Of a stretch of DNA of 43,622 bases, positions 20,971-43,622 are shown piece after piece. The notes beneath the pieces were generated by a model. That model saw only the letters and a list, made by a program, of their open reading frames with translations, made no database searches and was not told the origin of the DNA. Position 1 is the first letter of the stretch, and each line of letters opens with the position of its first letter. The position numbers were made by a program, and so were the translations under genes. The stretch comes from Bacillota bacterium. Its GTDB lineage: Bacteria > Bacillota > GCA-003054495 > Carboxydocellales > JAJZTU01. The stretch covers positions 1 to 43,622 of the forward strand of contig JAJZTU010000003.1 in NCBI GenBank assembly GCA_021848765.1. The letters run 5' to 3'.

Positions 20971-21047
20971 AATAAAAAAACTCCTACCAGTGATCCGGTA
21001 GGAGCTATCAGCTGTGAAAACAGCGGTTAAGGCGAGCCCCATCGCCT
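20971..21047 (-). ncRNA. Fluoride (crcB) riboswitch with overlapping intrinsic terminator
   Basis: Minus strand GGCGATGGGGCTCGCCTTAACCGCTGTTTTCACAGCTGATAGCTCCTACC matches the crcB-motif aptamer. CTCCTACCGGATCACTGGTAGGAG followed by a T-tract is the expression platform. Confidence 0.94.
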
Positions 21048-21136
21048 TTGTCTTTATTTGTTTTATATTTATTCTCTCTTTTTCCGTAATTTCCTTCTAT
21101 TCTTCTTGATTATTGAGAGCCTTTGGCAAAAAAAAT

Positions 21137-38763: not shown

Positions 38764-39831
38764 CTACTCTTCTACCAGCTTGCGTTTCAGCAAATCAATC
38801 ATGTTTACAGGAGTAGGGTCAATCCCGTACAGGGTAGCCAGGTAAACACTGACATAATCCCCTATGTATGTCAGGGAAAAGGTGCGGGCCAGGGTAGTGT
38901 TGCCTCTGGAATGAACCTCAGTGATACCGGAGACTGCTTTTCCCATGATAGTTTTACTGATTTCCATGCGCTTCTGGACCCGGGGATGGTCAGCTTGATC
39001 CCGCAGGATGATAATTTCCAGATTATTAAGCAGTTGGCCGGGGGCCTCAAAACCCACGATTTCGTTGTGGTTCATTTCCGGCAGGACATTCCAGTAAGCT
39101 GCGGCCTTGGCATTTTCGTTAATCTGGCCCTTCCAGCGGGTGGCCACAACCTCTGTGGTTCCTGATGCGCCGTAGATGACCGGAATTTTATTATACACCT
39201 TCAGGGCGATTGTTTTGGCCTGGTTATTTTCCACCGGGCTTTCCGGCTTGAGAACTTCCCGCAGCTCTTTCAGGTTGCTAATGGCATCCTCGATTTCTGC
39301 GCTAGCATCAGGAATCAGGCCCAGGCGTTGCAGCACCACCACAGTGGGAATAAACAGGTAGCCGGTAGCGGCCCGGGGAGAAATTCCTCCCGGGATGGTT
39401 ATCACGGGCACCCCGTCATTGCCGGCGAGTTCTTTCAGCTTTCCACCGGTGGTAATTACCACGATTTTTGCCCCTTTGGCAATAGCCTGCTGATAAGCGC
39501 TTAAGGTCTCCTCGGTATTGCCGGAAAAGCTGGTAGCAAACAGCAGGGTCTGCGGACCCACAAAATTAGGCAGGGTATAATCACGGTTGACAATCACCGG
39601 GATTCCCGCTTTATCCCCCACATATACCCTGAGCAGGTCACCACCAATAGCCGAGCCTCCCAGGCCGGTGACCATAATCTGGGTAAAGCCCTGATAGCCC
39701 TGGGGAAGCCCGGCTTCCTTGGCAATGGCCAGGGCCTCAGCACACTGTTCAGGCAGCCTCCAGACGGCCTCCAGCATTTTCCCCGGGTCATTGCCGAGAA
39801 TGGTTTGGACGCTGTTAAGTTTTGAATGCAT
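38764..39831 (-). CDS. Bifunctional phosphoglucose/phosphomannose isomerase
   Basis: SIS domain: VTGLGGSAIGGDLLR...ATSFSGNTEETLSAYQQA; C-terminal bact-PGI domain. Confidence 0.92.
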   Translation of the reverse strand: MHSKLNSVQTILGNDPGKMLEAVWRLPEQCAEALAIAKEAGLPQGYQGFTQIMVTGLGGSAIGGDLLRVYVGDKAGIPVIVNRDYTLPNFVGPQTLLFATSFSGNTEETLSAYQQAIAKGAKIVVITTGGKLKELAGNDGVPVITIPGGISPRAATGYLFIPTVVVLQRLGLIPDASAEIEDAISNLKELREVLKPESPVENNQAKTIALKVYNKIPVIYGASGTTEVVATRWKGQINENAKAAAYWNVLPEMNHNEIVGFEAPGQLLNNLEIIILRDQADHPRVQKRMEISKTIMGKAVSGITEVHSRGNTTLARTFSLTYIGDYVSVYLATLYGIDPTPVNMIDLLKRKLVEE

Positions 39832-39897
39832 AGTAAGTACCTCCTTATAAACTTTTGTTTTTATAAATAATGTGGCCCGGATAATTACGACCGGTCG

Positions 39898-40105
39898 GAT
39901 ACCTGTCCCGGTTCGGTGCTCTTAGTTCCGTACCTAGCAGCTCTAAGCTTGGTGTGCTAATAAAATCGACCAACCTTGCTGATGGGGCATCCGTGCCCCC
40001 AGCAAGGTTGCCGGCGTCCATGCCGGCAAGGTCGATTTTATTGCACACCCGCGCTAAGAGCTGCTACGGTACTCCACCATGAGCACCTAAACCGGGACAG
40101 GTATC
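39898..40105 (+). repeat. Structured unit, copy 1 (three-way junction)
   Basis: Basal stem GATACCTGTCCCGGTT..GGTGCTC (39898-39921) / GAGCACCTAAACCGGGACAGGTATC (40081-40105). Central stem GGTGTGCTAATAAAATCGACC (39951-39971) / GGTCGATTTTATTGCACACC (40030-40049). Two apical hairpins at 39972-40009 and 40010-40027. Confidence 0.9.
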
Positions 40106-40265
40106 CTCCCTGACCAAAGTTTCTGCGTGGTTGCCGCACACTCTCACCGGGAAACGGATAGCAAAACGGGGTAACTCTGCCTGATAAGGGACTGGACCGG
40201 GGCACCGTTCGGGATAACTGTTTTATCAGGCCGGGGCTACCGGTCCCTGGTAACTTATTCGCCCA

Positions 40266-40483
40266 GGCCGGGGCTACCTGCCGGTGAAGGAGCGACTCGC
40301 GGAGTACGGTAGCAGTTCTTAGCGAAGGTGCGCAACAGAATCGACCTTGCCGGCATGGACGCCGGCAACCTCGGCGGGGGCACGGACGCCCCATCGCCGA
40401 GGTCGGTCGATTCTGTTAGCGCACCAAGCTTAGAACTGCTCTGTGCGGAGCGTGGAGCTCCAAACCGGCAGGTAGTCCCGGCC
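40266..40483 (-). repeat. Structured unit, copy 2 (inverted relative to copy 1)
   Basis: Basal stem GGCCGGGGCTACCTGCCGGT (40266-40285) / ACCGGCAGGTAGTCCCGGCC (40464-40483). The reverse complement aligns with copy 1 across the whole core, with compensatory stem changes. Confidence 0.9.
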
Positions 40484-40569
40484 GGAGACAAAAACGAGTC
40501 CGGCCAGAGCAAAACAGGTATCGACCCGACGAATTAGCTTAACAGGCAGTAAAGCGTGCAACATTTCCC

Positions 40570-42534
40570 TCACGGCCTGATCTCCAAAACCTCCTCCGCA
40601 TAGGCCCGCAAAACCTCAGCCACTCCCCAGGCCTGAGCATAACACCCCCTGGGCTCATGGGGATGGTCCCCGTCGAAGATTTCGGATATGCTGCCTACAC
40701 CGTGGTCAAAGAGCTGGCCTTTGAAGGGCTCAATCAGCTTTTCCGCTACCACCTGGCTTTCCTGAGAATAGTCATTGACCTTGCGGTAGGCGCTGATAAA
40801 GGGGCCAATCAGCCAACTCCAGGCTGTCCCCTGGTGATAGGCCCCATCCCTTTGTAAGCGGTCTCCCCTGTAATGGCCTTTGTACTGGGGGTCCTCCGGG
40901 GAGAGGCTGCGCAGCCCATAAGGAGTGTATAGATGCTGCCAAACCTTACGGACGATTTTGACCTCTTTGGAGTGGTCCAGCATGGAAAAGGGGAGCGCAA
41001 CAGCGATAATCTGGTTGGGGCGGATGGAACCATCCTTGCGTTCCCCAATGACGTCATAAAGGCACCCGGTAGAATCATTCCAGAATTCCTGAATAAAGCT
41101 CTTCCTCACTTTTTGGGCCAGTTGATTGTAGGCCTTGGGATTATCGTCAAACTTCTGGGCCAGCTTCTCCATTACCCGCAGGGCATTATACCACAGGGCA
41201 TTTATCTCCACAGGCTTACCATGCCTGGGTGTCACTACCCAATCATCTACCTTGGCGTCCATCCAGGTGAGTTGAAGCCCGTGACTGCCTGCGGAAACCA
41301 GACCGTCTTTATCTACGTGGATATTGAAATGGGTCCCTTTCAGGTGGTATTCCACAATTTGCTTTAACACAGGGTAGATGATATCCCGGATAAAGTCGTA
41401 GTTGCCGGTGTAGCGCAAGTATTTATGCACAGCATGAAAAAACCACAGGGAGGCGTCCACAGTATTGTAATCAGGATTTAACCCTTCGTCGGGGAACCGG
41501 TTAGGTATGAGTCCGTCCTTACAATAGCGGGCAAAGGTGGTAAGTATCTCCTTGGCAGCATCAAAGCGTTTGGTAACCAGGGTCAGGCCGGGCAGGGCGA
41601 TCATAGTATCCCGGCCCCAGTCGGTAAACCACGGGTAACCGGCAATGACTGTCTTAGTCCCGGTTGATTCCCGCCGGACGATGAAATTGTCTGCCGCCAC
41701 CACCAGACGGTTGATAAATTCATGGCCATAGCCGGCCTTTTCCACCAGTTGGGAAAGGCGCTTTTCTTCCTGAACCTGCCAGAGTTGGCTGTTGACAGGC
41801 TTAACCGGCTCAGTTGAAGCCACAATCGCAAAACTGCCGCCGCCGGTTAGTTTTACTTCAAACTCACCGGGCATAAAGTGGTCTTCCCATTTGTCCTCCC
41901 CCCGGCTTTCCTCAACGATATAATGGAGTCCCTCAAACCAATAGCCCGGGCCCTGGCTATACCGGGCGCCCTCTCCTGCCAGATAGAGCTTGGGAGCGCC
42001 TGGAAAGGCTTCAATTACCACTCCGTTTCCTTCCGGCTGCTGGTAAAAGGGCCACTGGTTACGGCGGGTGAGCCAGTGGTAATCCCGGCAGTTAATTAAG
42101 GGAGTAATTTTCAGATCTATTGCTTTATCAGGACTGGTATAGACGTTGTACCGGATTACAGTGGTATTCCGGCCGTGGACCATGAACACGATTTTTTCAA
42201 TTAAAACATCTTGGATGCTGTACAGGTAAGTAGGCAGGGGGTGGGTACTAAATTGCTGCAAATAGCGGTGGCCCTGAGGATACAGCCCATTGGCCGTATC
42301 ATTTACTCCCAGAGCGAATTCCCGGTTTTCTATGCATACCCGTTCCTCCAGTTTGGCCAGCAGGAGTGTGCGGTCTGTAGGAGGGCGTAAAGCAGCGAAG
42401 AGCAGACCGTGGTACCGGCGGGTATTGGCTCCCAGGATGGTGGAAGAAGCAAATCCGCCCAAGCCGTTGGTAACCAACCATTCCTTTTCAATTGCGCGTC
42501 CGAAATCTTTCAACTCCGCCTTACCAAAAGTCAT
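40570..42534 (-). CDS. Amylo-alpha-1,6-glucosidase (glycogen debranching enzyme)
   Basis: EKEWLVTNGLGGFASSTILGANTRRYHGLLFAAL ... GYPWFTDWGRDTMIALPGL. Confidence 0.95.
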   Translation of the reverse strand: MTFGKAELKDFGRAIEKEWLVTNGLGGFASSTILGANTRRYHGLLFAALRPPTDRTLLLAKLEERVCIENREFALGVNDTANGLYPQGHRYLQQFSTHPLPTYLYSIQDVLIEKIVFMVHGRNTTVIRYNVYTSPDKAIDLKITPLINCRDYHWLTRRNQWPFYQQPEGNGVVIEAFPGAPKLYLAGEGARYSQGPGYWFEGLHYIVEESRGEDKWEDHFMPGEFEVKLTGGGSFAIVASTEPVKPVNSQLWQVQEEKRLSQLVEKAGYGHEFINRLVVAADNFIVRRESTGTKTVIAGYPWFTDWGRDTMIALPGLTLVTKRFDAAKEILTTFARYCKDGLIPNRFPDEGLNPDYNTVDASLWFFHAVHKYLRYTGNYDFIRDIIYPVLKQIVEYHLKGTHFNIHVDKDGLVSAGSHGLQLTWMDAKVDDWVVTPRHGKPVEINALWYNALRVMEKLAQKFDDNPKAYNQLAQKVRKSFIQEFWNDSTGCLYDVIGERKDGSIRPNQIIAVALPFSMLDHSKEVKIVRKVWQHLYTPYGLRSLSPEDPQYKGHYRGDRLQRDGAYHQGTAWSWLIGPFISAYRKVNDYSQESQVVAEKLIEPFKGQLFDHGVGSISEIFDGDHPHEPRGCYAQAWGVAEVLRAYAEEVLEIRP

Positions 42535-42711: not shown

Positions 42712-43622
42712 TTAAGAATCCGTTCTATTGCCATGGCACGCACTGCAGAAGTTCTGCTGCTTGTGGCAGGTTGTACAGCTATTGGCTTTTACCTTTGCTG
42801 CTTGCTCATGTGTAGCCACCCAATTACCGGGATGCGGATTATTTTTGGTGTGACAATCAGTGCAAAAGTTTTTTGCCGCATATTTGGCATATGGGTTGAC
42901 CGGATTTTGACCGGAATGACAATACAGGCACTTATTTGAATCCGCCTTGGCCAATTCGCCGTGGCCCTTGGCAAAACCTCCGGGATGCGGGATAGGCAGT
43001 TTGTGGCAATCCGAGCAGTTGTTAGCCCGCTGTCCCGCTACCGGCTTGGCTCCTTGTTTATGACACTTATTGCAGACCTCCGGGTTAGCCTGATATTCTT
43101 CGGCATGGACCTGCAGGAAGTTTTGCTGGTGTGGGATTACGGTCTTATGACAATCAAAGCAGAAGTTTTGATTGGATTTGGCATTGGCCGCAACATTTAA
43201 TGCGGCATTTGCTTCTCCATCCGGTAGTTTTGTGCCACCTTGGGCTAAGTTAAGCTGATGACAATGGTTGCATTCCTTAATGTTTTTCAGAGCGTACGTC
43301 CCGTGTGCCAAAGCCCATTTTCCCTTGGGCTGGTGACTTTTGGGGACAATATCTTTAATTTGGAGATGACAAGAGGTACACTCATTAGACTTTGGCACCT
43401 TAGCCTGCTTATTCTCAAGCAGTTTGTTGGTATGACAGCTTTGGCAGGCCGCCATAACCTGTTTGGCATCAACCTTATCACTATGGCCTACACCCACATG
43501 ACACAAGGTGCATTTGGTTTCAATCTTGTCATGCTTGGGGTGGTCAAAGCCGATATGTACCCGGTTTTTATACCGCTCATCCCTGGTTTTCGCCAATTCA
43601 GCGGCTAGTTCCTGGTTACCCA
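42712..43622 (-). CDS. Multiheme c-type cytochrome (partial; N-terminus beyond window)
   Basis: 11 CxxCH motifs (CTLCH, CQSCH, CTSCH, CNHCH, CFDCH, CNKCH, CSDCH, CLYCH, CTDCH, CTTCH, CSACH). The frame stays open to the window edge and the ORF-track start is a TTG. Confidence 0.93.
   Translation of the reverse strand, partial: GNQELAAELAKTRDERYKNRVHIGFDHPKHDKIETKCTLCHVGVGHSDKVDAKQVMAACQSCHTNKLLENKQAKVPKSNECTSCHLQIKDIVPKSHQPKGKWALAHGTYALKNIKECNHCHQLNLAQGGTKLPDGEANAALNVAANAKSNQNFCFDCHKTVIPHQQNFLQVHAEEYQANPEVCNKCHKQGAKPVAGQRANNCSDCHKLPIPHPGGFAKGHGELAKADSNKCLYCHSGQNPVNPYAKYAAKNFCTDCHTKNNPHPGNWVATHEQAAKVKANSCTTCHKQQNFCSACHGNRTDS

Follow-up and report, generated by a model that had tools for sequence, protein, structure and literature searches.

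TwoAYGGAY RNA units between a debranching-enzyme gene and an isomerase gene in a Bacillota genome, and their probable relation to mobile elements of the IS1182 type

Two inverted TwoAYGGAY units in one intergenic region

The analyzed stretch, called the window in the following, comprises 43,622 nucleotides of a single contig of a Bacillota genome. Near its end, the genes of a glycogen debranching enzyme and a phosphoglucose isomerase are separated by an intergenic region that contains two inverted palindromic units (Table 1). Elsewhere in the window, a fluoride riboswitch and a gene for a multihaem c-type cytochrome-like protein were observed.

Table 1. Features of the window. Positions refer to its forward strand; a dot denotes a feature without strand.
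Feature	Position	Strand	Evidence
Copy 1, TwoAYGGAY RNA core, RF01731 model positions 1-168	39923..40079	-	54.5 bits
Copy 1 with extended basal palindrome (arm ...CAGGTATCCGACCGG), which exceeds the length of the Rfam model	39891..40112	-	arm pattern dispersed in genome
Copy 1, first hairpin loop AUGGAC	40016..40021	-	sequence
Copy 1, second hairpin loop ACGGAU	39989..39994	-	sequence
Copy 2, TwoAYGGAY RNA core, RF01731 model positions 1-168	40297..40453	+	53.5 bits
Copy 2 with extended basal palindrome	40263..40486	+	
Copy 2, first hairpin loop AUGGAC	40355..40360	+	sequence
Copy 2, second hairpin loop ACGGAC	40382..40387	+	sequence
738-nt intergenic region with both copies, between debranching-enzyme and isomerase genes	39832..40569	.	
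Phosphoglucose isomerase with SIS domains (flanking gene)	38764..39831	-	Pfam PF10432, PF01380
Amylo-alpha-1,6-glucosidase, glycogen debranching enzyme (flanking gene)	40570..42534	-	Pfam PF06202, PF12439
Fluoride riboswitch (RF01734)	20992..21055	-	57.3 bits
Multihaem c-type cytochrome-like protein	42712..43596	-	Cytochrome_C7, Cytochrom_c3_2

An earlier note, made from the letters of this DNA alone, had described two inverted units which share a fold of one long stem and two apical hairpins, and both points were borne out. The two arms of the inverted pair, 39908-40095 and 40281-40468, align without gaps at 81% complementarity. Between the copies, 172 of 233 aligned bases are identical, and the predicted folds, with energies of -161 and -176 kcal/mol, each consist of a long stem carrying two apical hairpins. 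The same note had counted seven compensatory double substitutions. All of them are found among the 19 double changes with preserved pairing that we identified in the 84 pairs which the two predicted folds share, compared on a common strand, where only one single-sided change occurs. Random placement of the same differences in 20,000 trials yielded a mean of 4.4 and a maximum of 11 such double changes. Eight of the 19 lie in the basal arm, beyond the seven reported before, where the alignment is less sure.

The note had not recognised the units as a named family, which the Rfam search corrects: Both copies match the covariance model of TwoAYGGAY (RF01731) over its full length and score above its gathering threshold of 43 bits, and both carry the two terminal hairpins with AYGGAY loops. 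A hit of this kind had been named in the note itself as one that would refute the novelty of the structure. The window units can be taken, with certainty for practical purposes, as members of the TwoAYGGAY family. The Rfam strand of copy 1 is the minus strand, the plus strand assigned to it earlier being the complement, and the two copies are thus oriented divergently. It is on the Rfam strand that the conserved loops read A-Y-G-G-A-Y. While the window copies resemble the Rfam family in matching the model end to end and in having a long stem that bears two apical AYGGAY hairpins, they differ from it in a palindrome that is about 30 bp longer per side and in the presence of about 22 dispersed copies within one genome.

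TwoAYGGAY was described in 2010 by Weinberg as a probable RNA (PMC2864571), and its structure was refined in Rfam 15 (PMC11701678). Gardner and Eldai proposed binding of CsrA on the basis of its two GGA hairpins (PMC4333381). The passages on TwoAYGGAY that were compared, those in these three articles among them, mention no mobile elements. The family is already known, with its function unexplained; its mobile-element context is new.

The position of copy 1 raises the question of a cis-regulatory leader that controls the downstream isomerase gene on the same strand. The core ends 92 nt ahead of the isomerase start codon, and Rfam assigns the type label Cis-reg to RF01731. However, Weinberg's description, as far as its passage on the motif goes, scored it as neither cis-regulatory nor a riboswitch (PMC2864571), and only 16 of 56 loci are co-directional with the downstream gene, such that a consistent upstream placement is missing. 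In the other 40 of the 56 loci the element and the next gene have their 3' ends directed toward each other (p = 0.002), with the direction of the upstream gene being random. This bias is unfavorable to a leader and agrees with insertion at the ends of genes. Together with a related junction that is devoid of the element (see below), these observations make a leader function very improbable.

Dispersal in the genome of the window

Searching the genome of the window with RF01731 gave 16 matches. A model built from the genome's own copies added two, and the arm sequence of the element revealed four more as well as two that are cut by contig ends, which brings the total to about 22 full-length copies. 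At three further loci (L222, L227, and L232) only the arms are present and the core is missing; by analogy, these loci resemble deletion derivatives of transposons. Four divergent pairs with facing 5' ends were found, one in the window and one each on contigs C363, C68, and C258. TwoAYGGAY is a dispersed repeat in this genome.

Several individual loci deserve mention. Copies L224 and L229 are full-length and keep the fold, although their first hairpin loop no longer contains the GGA. L010, located at a contig end (C35:1-90), equals L012 in its 5' half and flank and differs in its 3' half, and is possibly a chimera of the assembly. Apart from the TwoAYGGAY palindrome, a long palindrome of another kind (GGGTCGGGAGGAGGTGGGGTATTCCTCC...GGAGGAACACCCCACCCCC) lies about 340 nt upstream of the core at L003, L004, L006, and L014, and appears to interrupt copy L230. 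Many copies are followed on their 3' side by a short hairpin, ACCGGAGACAAAAGAGTCCGGCC, which is sometimes arranged in tandem, and others by a different 3' tail (ACCGGYAGCAAGCAATGAATCCC).

The junction itself could be compared with a syntenic one in a distant relative (G059), in which the same two genes are adjacent in the same order, separated by an element-free gap of 77 nt from stop to start, as opposed to 738 nt in the window. The two encoded proteins share 63% and 69% identity with those of the window. Because this relative is distant, a loss there is possible instead of an insertion in the window; a short gap of this kind is what insertion predicts. Relatives retrieved from GenBank via the isomerase protein reached at best 57-58% identity, and the debranching-enzyme gene was not found alongside in the stretches compared.

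The window copies hence combine the marks of a MITE-like dispersed repeat: many copies, arm-only derivatives, and an orthologous site free of the element. We consider it fairly probable that they are paralogous TwoAYGGAY copies residing on a dispersed MITE-like palindrome which entered the debranching-enzyme/isomerase junction. REP/BIME, SPRITE, and QMITE repeats (PMC10969869) and the Coxiella MITE sRNAs Cbsr3, 13, and 16 are similar in being dispersed intergenic palindromes that are sometimes transcribed and often clustered. TwoAYGGAY differs from them by a longer core with a three-way junction, by covariation, and by conserved GGA loops.

TwoAYGGAY elements with IS1182-type ends in related genomes

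Moving from the window to its phylum, TwoAYGGAY matches were found in 52 of 399 genomes, with a widely varying copy number. In G120, the element (L047) is a repeat with sharp boundaries that measures about 253 bp and occurs about 40 times, most copies being 89-95% identical. All 38 copies examined are flanked on both sides by a terminator-like hairpin, which is repeated directly and is specific for the locus. The scores range from 12 to 31 (median 19.5) for matched flanks, as compared to a mean of 7.1 and a maximum of 14 for mismatched ones. Being direct and different from locus to locus, these hairpins have the look of a target-site duplication. In the congener G151, the junction orthologous to one G120 site contains just one hairpin and lacks the element. 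In the same way, six of seven copies in G033 exceed the threshold for a hairpin duplication, which was also found around copies from G253, G384, and G111. It was not detected in most other TwoAYGGAY genomes sampled, and its interpretation as a general trait of the family was accordingly rejected. Flank repeats in G360 were likewise dismissed as target duplications, since they resemble another shared repeat.

The ends of the elements lead to a known transposon family. The end pattern CAGASTGTMGACAAA occurs 137 times in G120, compared to a single occurrence of the reversed control pattern, and is found in 45 of the 399 genomes. In some cases, two such ends lie at a distance of 1.6-1.7 kb and delimit an autonomous element with a single gene, whose product scores 383-469 bits against the NCBI cut-off of 270 for the IS1182 family and contains DUF772 and DDE_Tnp_1 domains. 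Most of these autonomous copies, too, have duplicated hairpins on their flanks. The IS1202 family, known for long target duplications (PMC10132070), was rejected as the mobiliser, as the autonomous element that shares its ends with the TwoAYGGAY elements belongs to the IS1182 family.

IS1182-type ends, hairpin duplication, and a TwoAYGGAY-type core coincide in elements of 216-266 bp from five genomes of three related families. In G120, G033, G253, G384, and G111, IS1182-type MITEs thus carry TwoAYGGAY as cargo and duplicate their target hairpin. The shared ends and targets suggest that an IS1182 transposase would act on these MITEs in trans. Targeting of hairpins and terminators is known for members of the IS1182 family and derivatives such as IS1272 and TnSha1, and is shared, together with the ends, by the elements of the five genomes. 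The difference is that IS1272 replaces or deletes the hairpin without duplicating it (PMC5678879, PMC4923244), while the TwoAYGGAY elements of these genomes duplicate it.

Two additional observations concern flanks and remnants. At three G120 sites (C8:234072-234182, C14:42327-42441, and C13:64099-64155) element ends are only 42-116 bp apart, probably representing core-less MITE deletion derivatives. The flanking repeat of copy L051 in G126, at least 22 bp long, is inverted rather than direct.

The window copies differ from the IS1182 family in having neither such ends nor a duplication. The exact end CAGASTGTMGACAAA does not occur in the genome of the window, where the copies have other arms (CAGGTATCCGACCGG). 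None of 18 copies in this genome reached a hairpin-duplication score of at least 13, and repeats from flank to flank around 15 copies did not rise above background. A search for an IS1182-type transposase returned only one, borderline DUF772 match (23.4 bits against a cut-off of 23.1) in an assembly that is 83% complete. The missing duplication is not decisive, because a replacement in the style of IS1272 would leave none. Based on the dispersal, the arm-only remnants, the element-free junction in G059, and the homology to IS1182-ended elements, we infer that the window copies are mobile and IS1182-MITE-like. They would have moved in the same general way as the elements of their relatives, that is, by a transposase supplied in trans and with hairpins chosen as targets.

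Conservation of the fold and the CsrA hypothesis

Among 15 copies from the genome of the window, compensatory changes affect 28 of 61 consensus pairs. A separate count among the copies of this genome gave 128 double changes. Across genera, conservation is highest in the two A(N)GGA loops: In 38 copies from many genera A59, G62, A86, and G88 are invariant, and the neighboring GGA positions are nearly so. Location of A(N)GGA within hairpin loops is a property of CsrA-sequestering sRNAs, and CsrA is present in 49 of 52 TwoAYGGAY genomes compared to 244 of 347 others, or 38 of 40 versus 162 of 227 when counted by genera (p = 7e-4). The genome of the window itself encodes CsrA (two PF02599 matches, best E-value 7e-26). 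The co-occurrence is correlative and may follow only lineage or flagella. For the CsrA role, a published hypothesis, these sequence comparisons add weak new support.

Along this line, the units could be genes of trans-acting sRNAs which sequester CsrA like CsrB or RsmZ, multiplied by duplication instead of transposition and with each copy being useful. This has a published proposal on its side (Gardner and Eldai, PMC4333381, in its passage on the motif), and invariant loops, CsrA co-occurrence, and the strong compensation just described agree with it. TwoAYGGAY shares with CsrB/RsmZ-type sRNAs the GGA motifs in hairpin loops and the presence of a CsrA gene in the genome, but differs in offering two sites per unit on many dispersed units, and is known here from its sequence. 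Arguments against such genes come from the sharply delimited elements, the duplicated hairpins, and the empty sites in related genomes, as well as from the core-less remnants in the genome of the window. Moreover, stem mutations in the young copies of G120 are even on both strands (G-U versus A-C, 42:41), such that single copies there show no RNA-strand constraint, and a search in the vicinity of the window copies revealed no sigma-70 promoter-like site. We regard this explanation as possible, though rather unlikely.

Conversely, the palindrome may be selfish at the level of DNA and have no RNA role, the paired changes arising from arm-to-arm correction by template switching in quasi-palindromes. 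The mobility of the elements in relatives and the 19 double changes versus one single change between the window copies, with G-U intermediates almost absent, would suit such a process. Against it, the loops are the most conserved part, more so than pairing requires, and most stem changes in the G120 copies, which spread recently, are single and uncorrected (166 single, 8 double). Arm-to-arm correction is therefore unlikely as the sole cause. On the Rfam strand, G-U exceeds A-C mismatches by 24 to 1 in the genome of the window, an excess that is not significant when loop positions serve as control (30:4 versus 69:18, p = 0.30), and strand-specific RNA selection, which the ratio had suggested, was dropped as an argument. 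All in all, a purely DNA-level origin appears improbable, and more so than the sRNA genes considered above.

The earlier note had concluded that the fold itself is under selection. Conservation of the fold is well supported. Selection on it is likely, yet there are other readings: Copies of a mobile-like palindrome offer one, and the strand test for selection as RNA did not reach significance.

Returning to paralogous copies on a mobile palindrome, a transcript of the element would exert its effect through both invariant hairpin loops with A(N)GGA, for which CsrA is the most plausible binding partner. Taken further, TwoAYGGAY would be the RNA domain of hairpin-hunting miniature transposons and not a conventional sRNA gene family. 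By hairpin duplication these would invade terminators, the captured terminator would end the transcript of the element itself, and genomes would acquire CsrA-binding RNAs by the dozen, so that a CsrA sponge would be built through mobility. In this full extent the scenario is speculative and, in our estimation, unlikely.

When the copies compared belong to a mobile palindrome, compensatory changes speak less strongly for an RNA function than covariation in vertically inherited genes does, which calls for caution with elements of this kind. Since 2010, TwoAYGGAY has had the status of an orphan candidate RNA. The IS1182-ended elements, their hairpin target duplications, and the empty site link one Rfam family to one transposon family, and suggest a cause of the multicopy and patchy occurrence of TwoAYGGAY. 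Its function thereby becomes testable, in terms of CsrA binding, transcription up to the captured terminator, and mobilisation in trans by IS1182.
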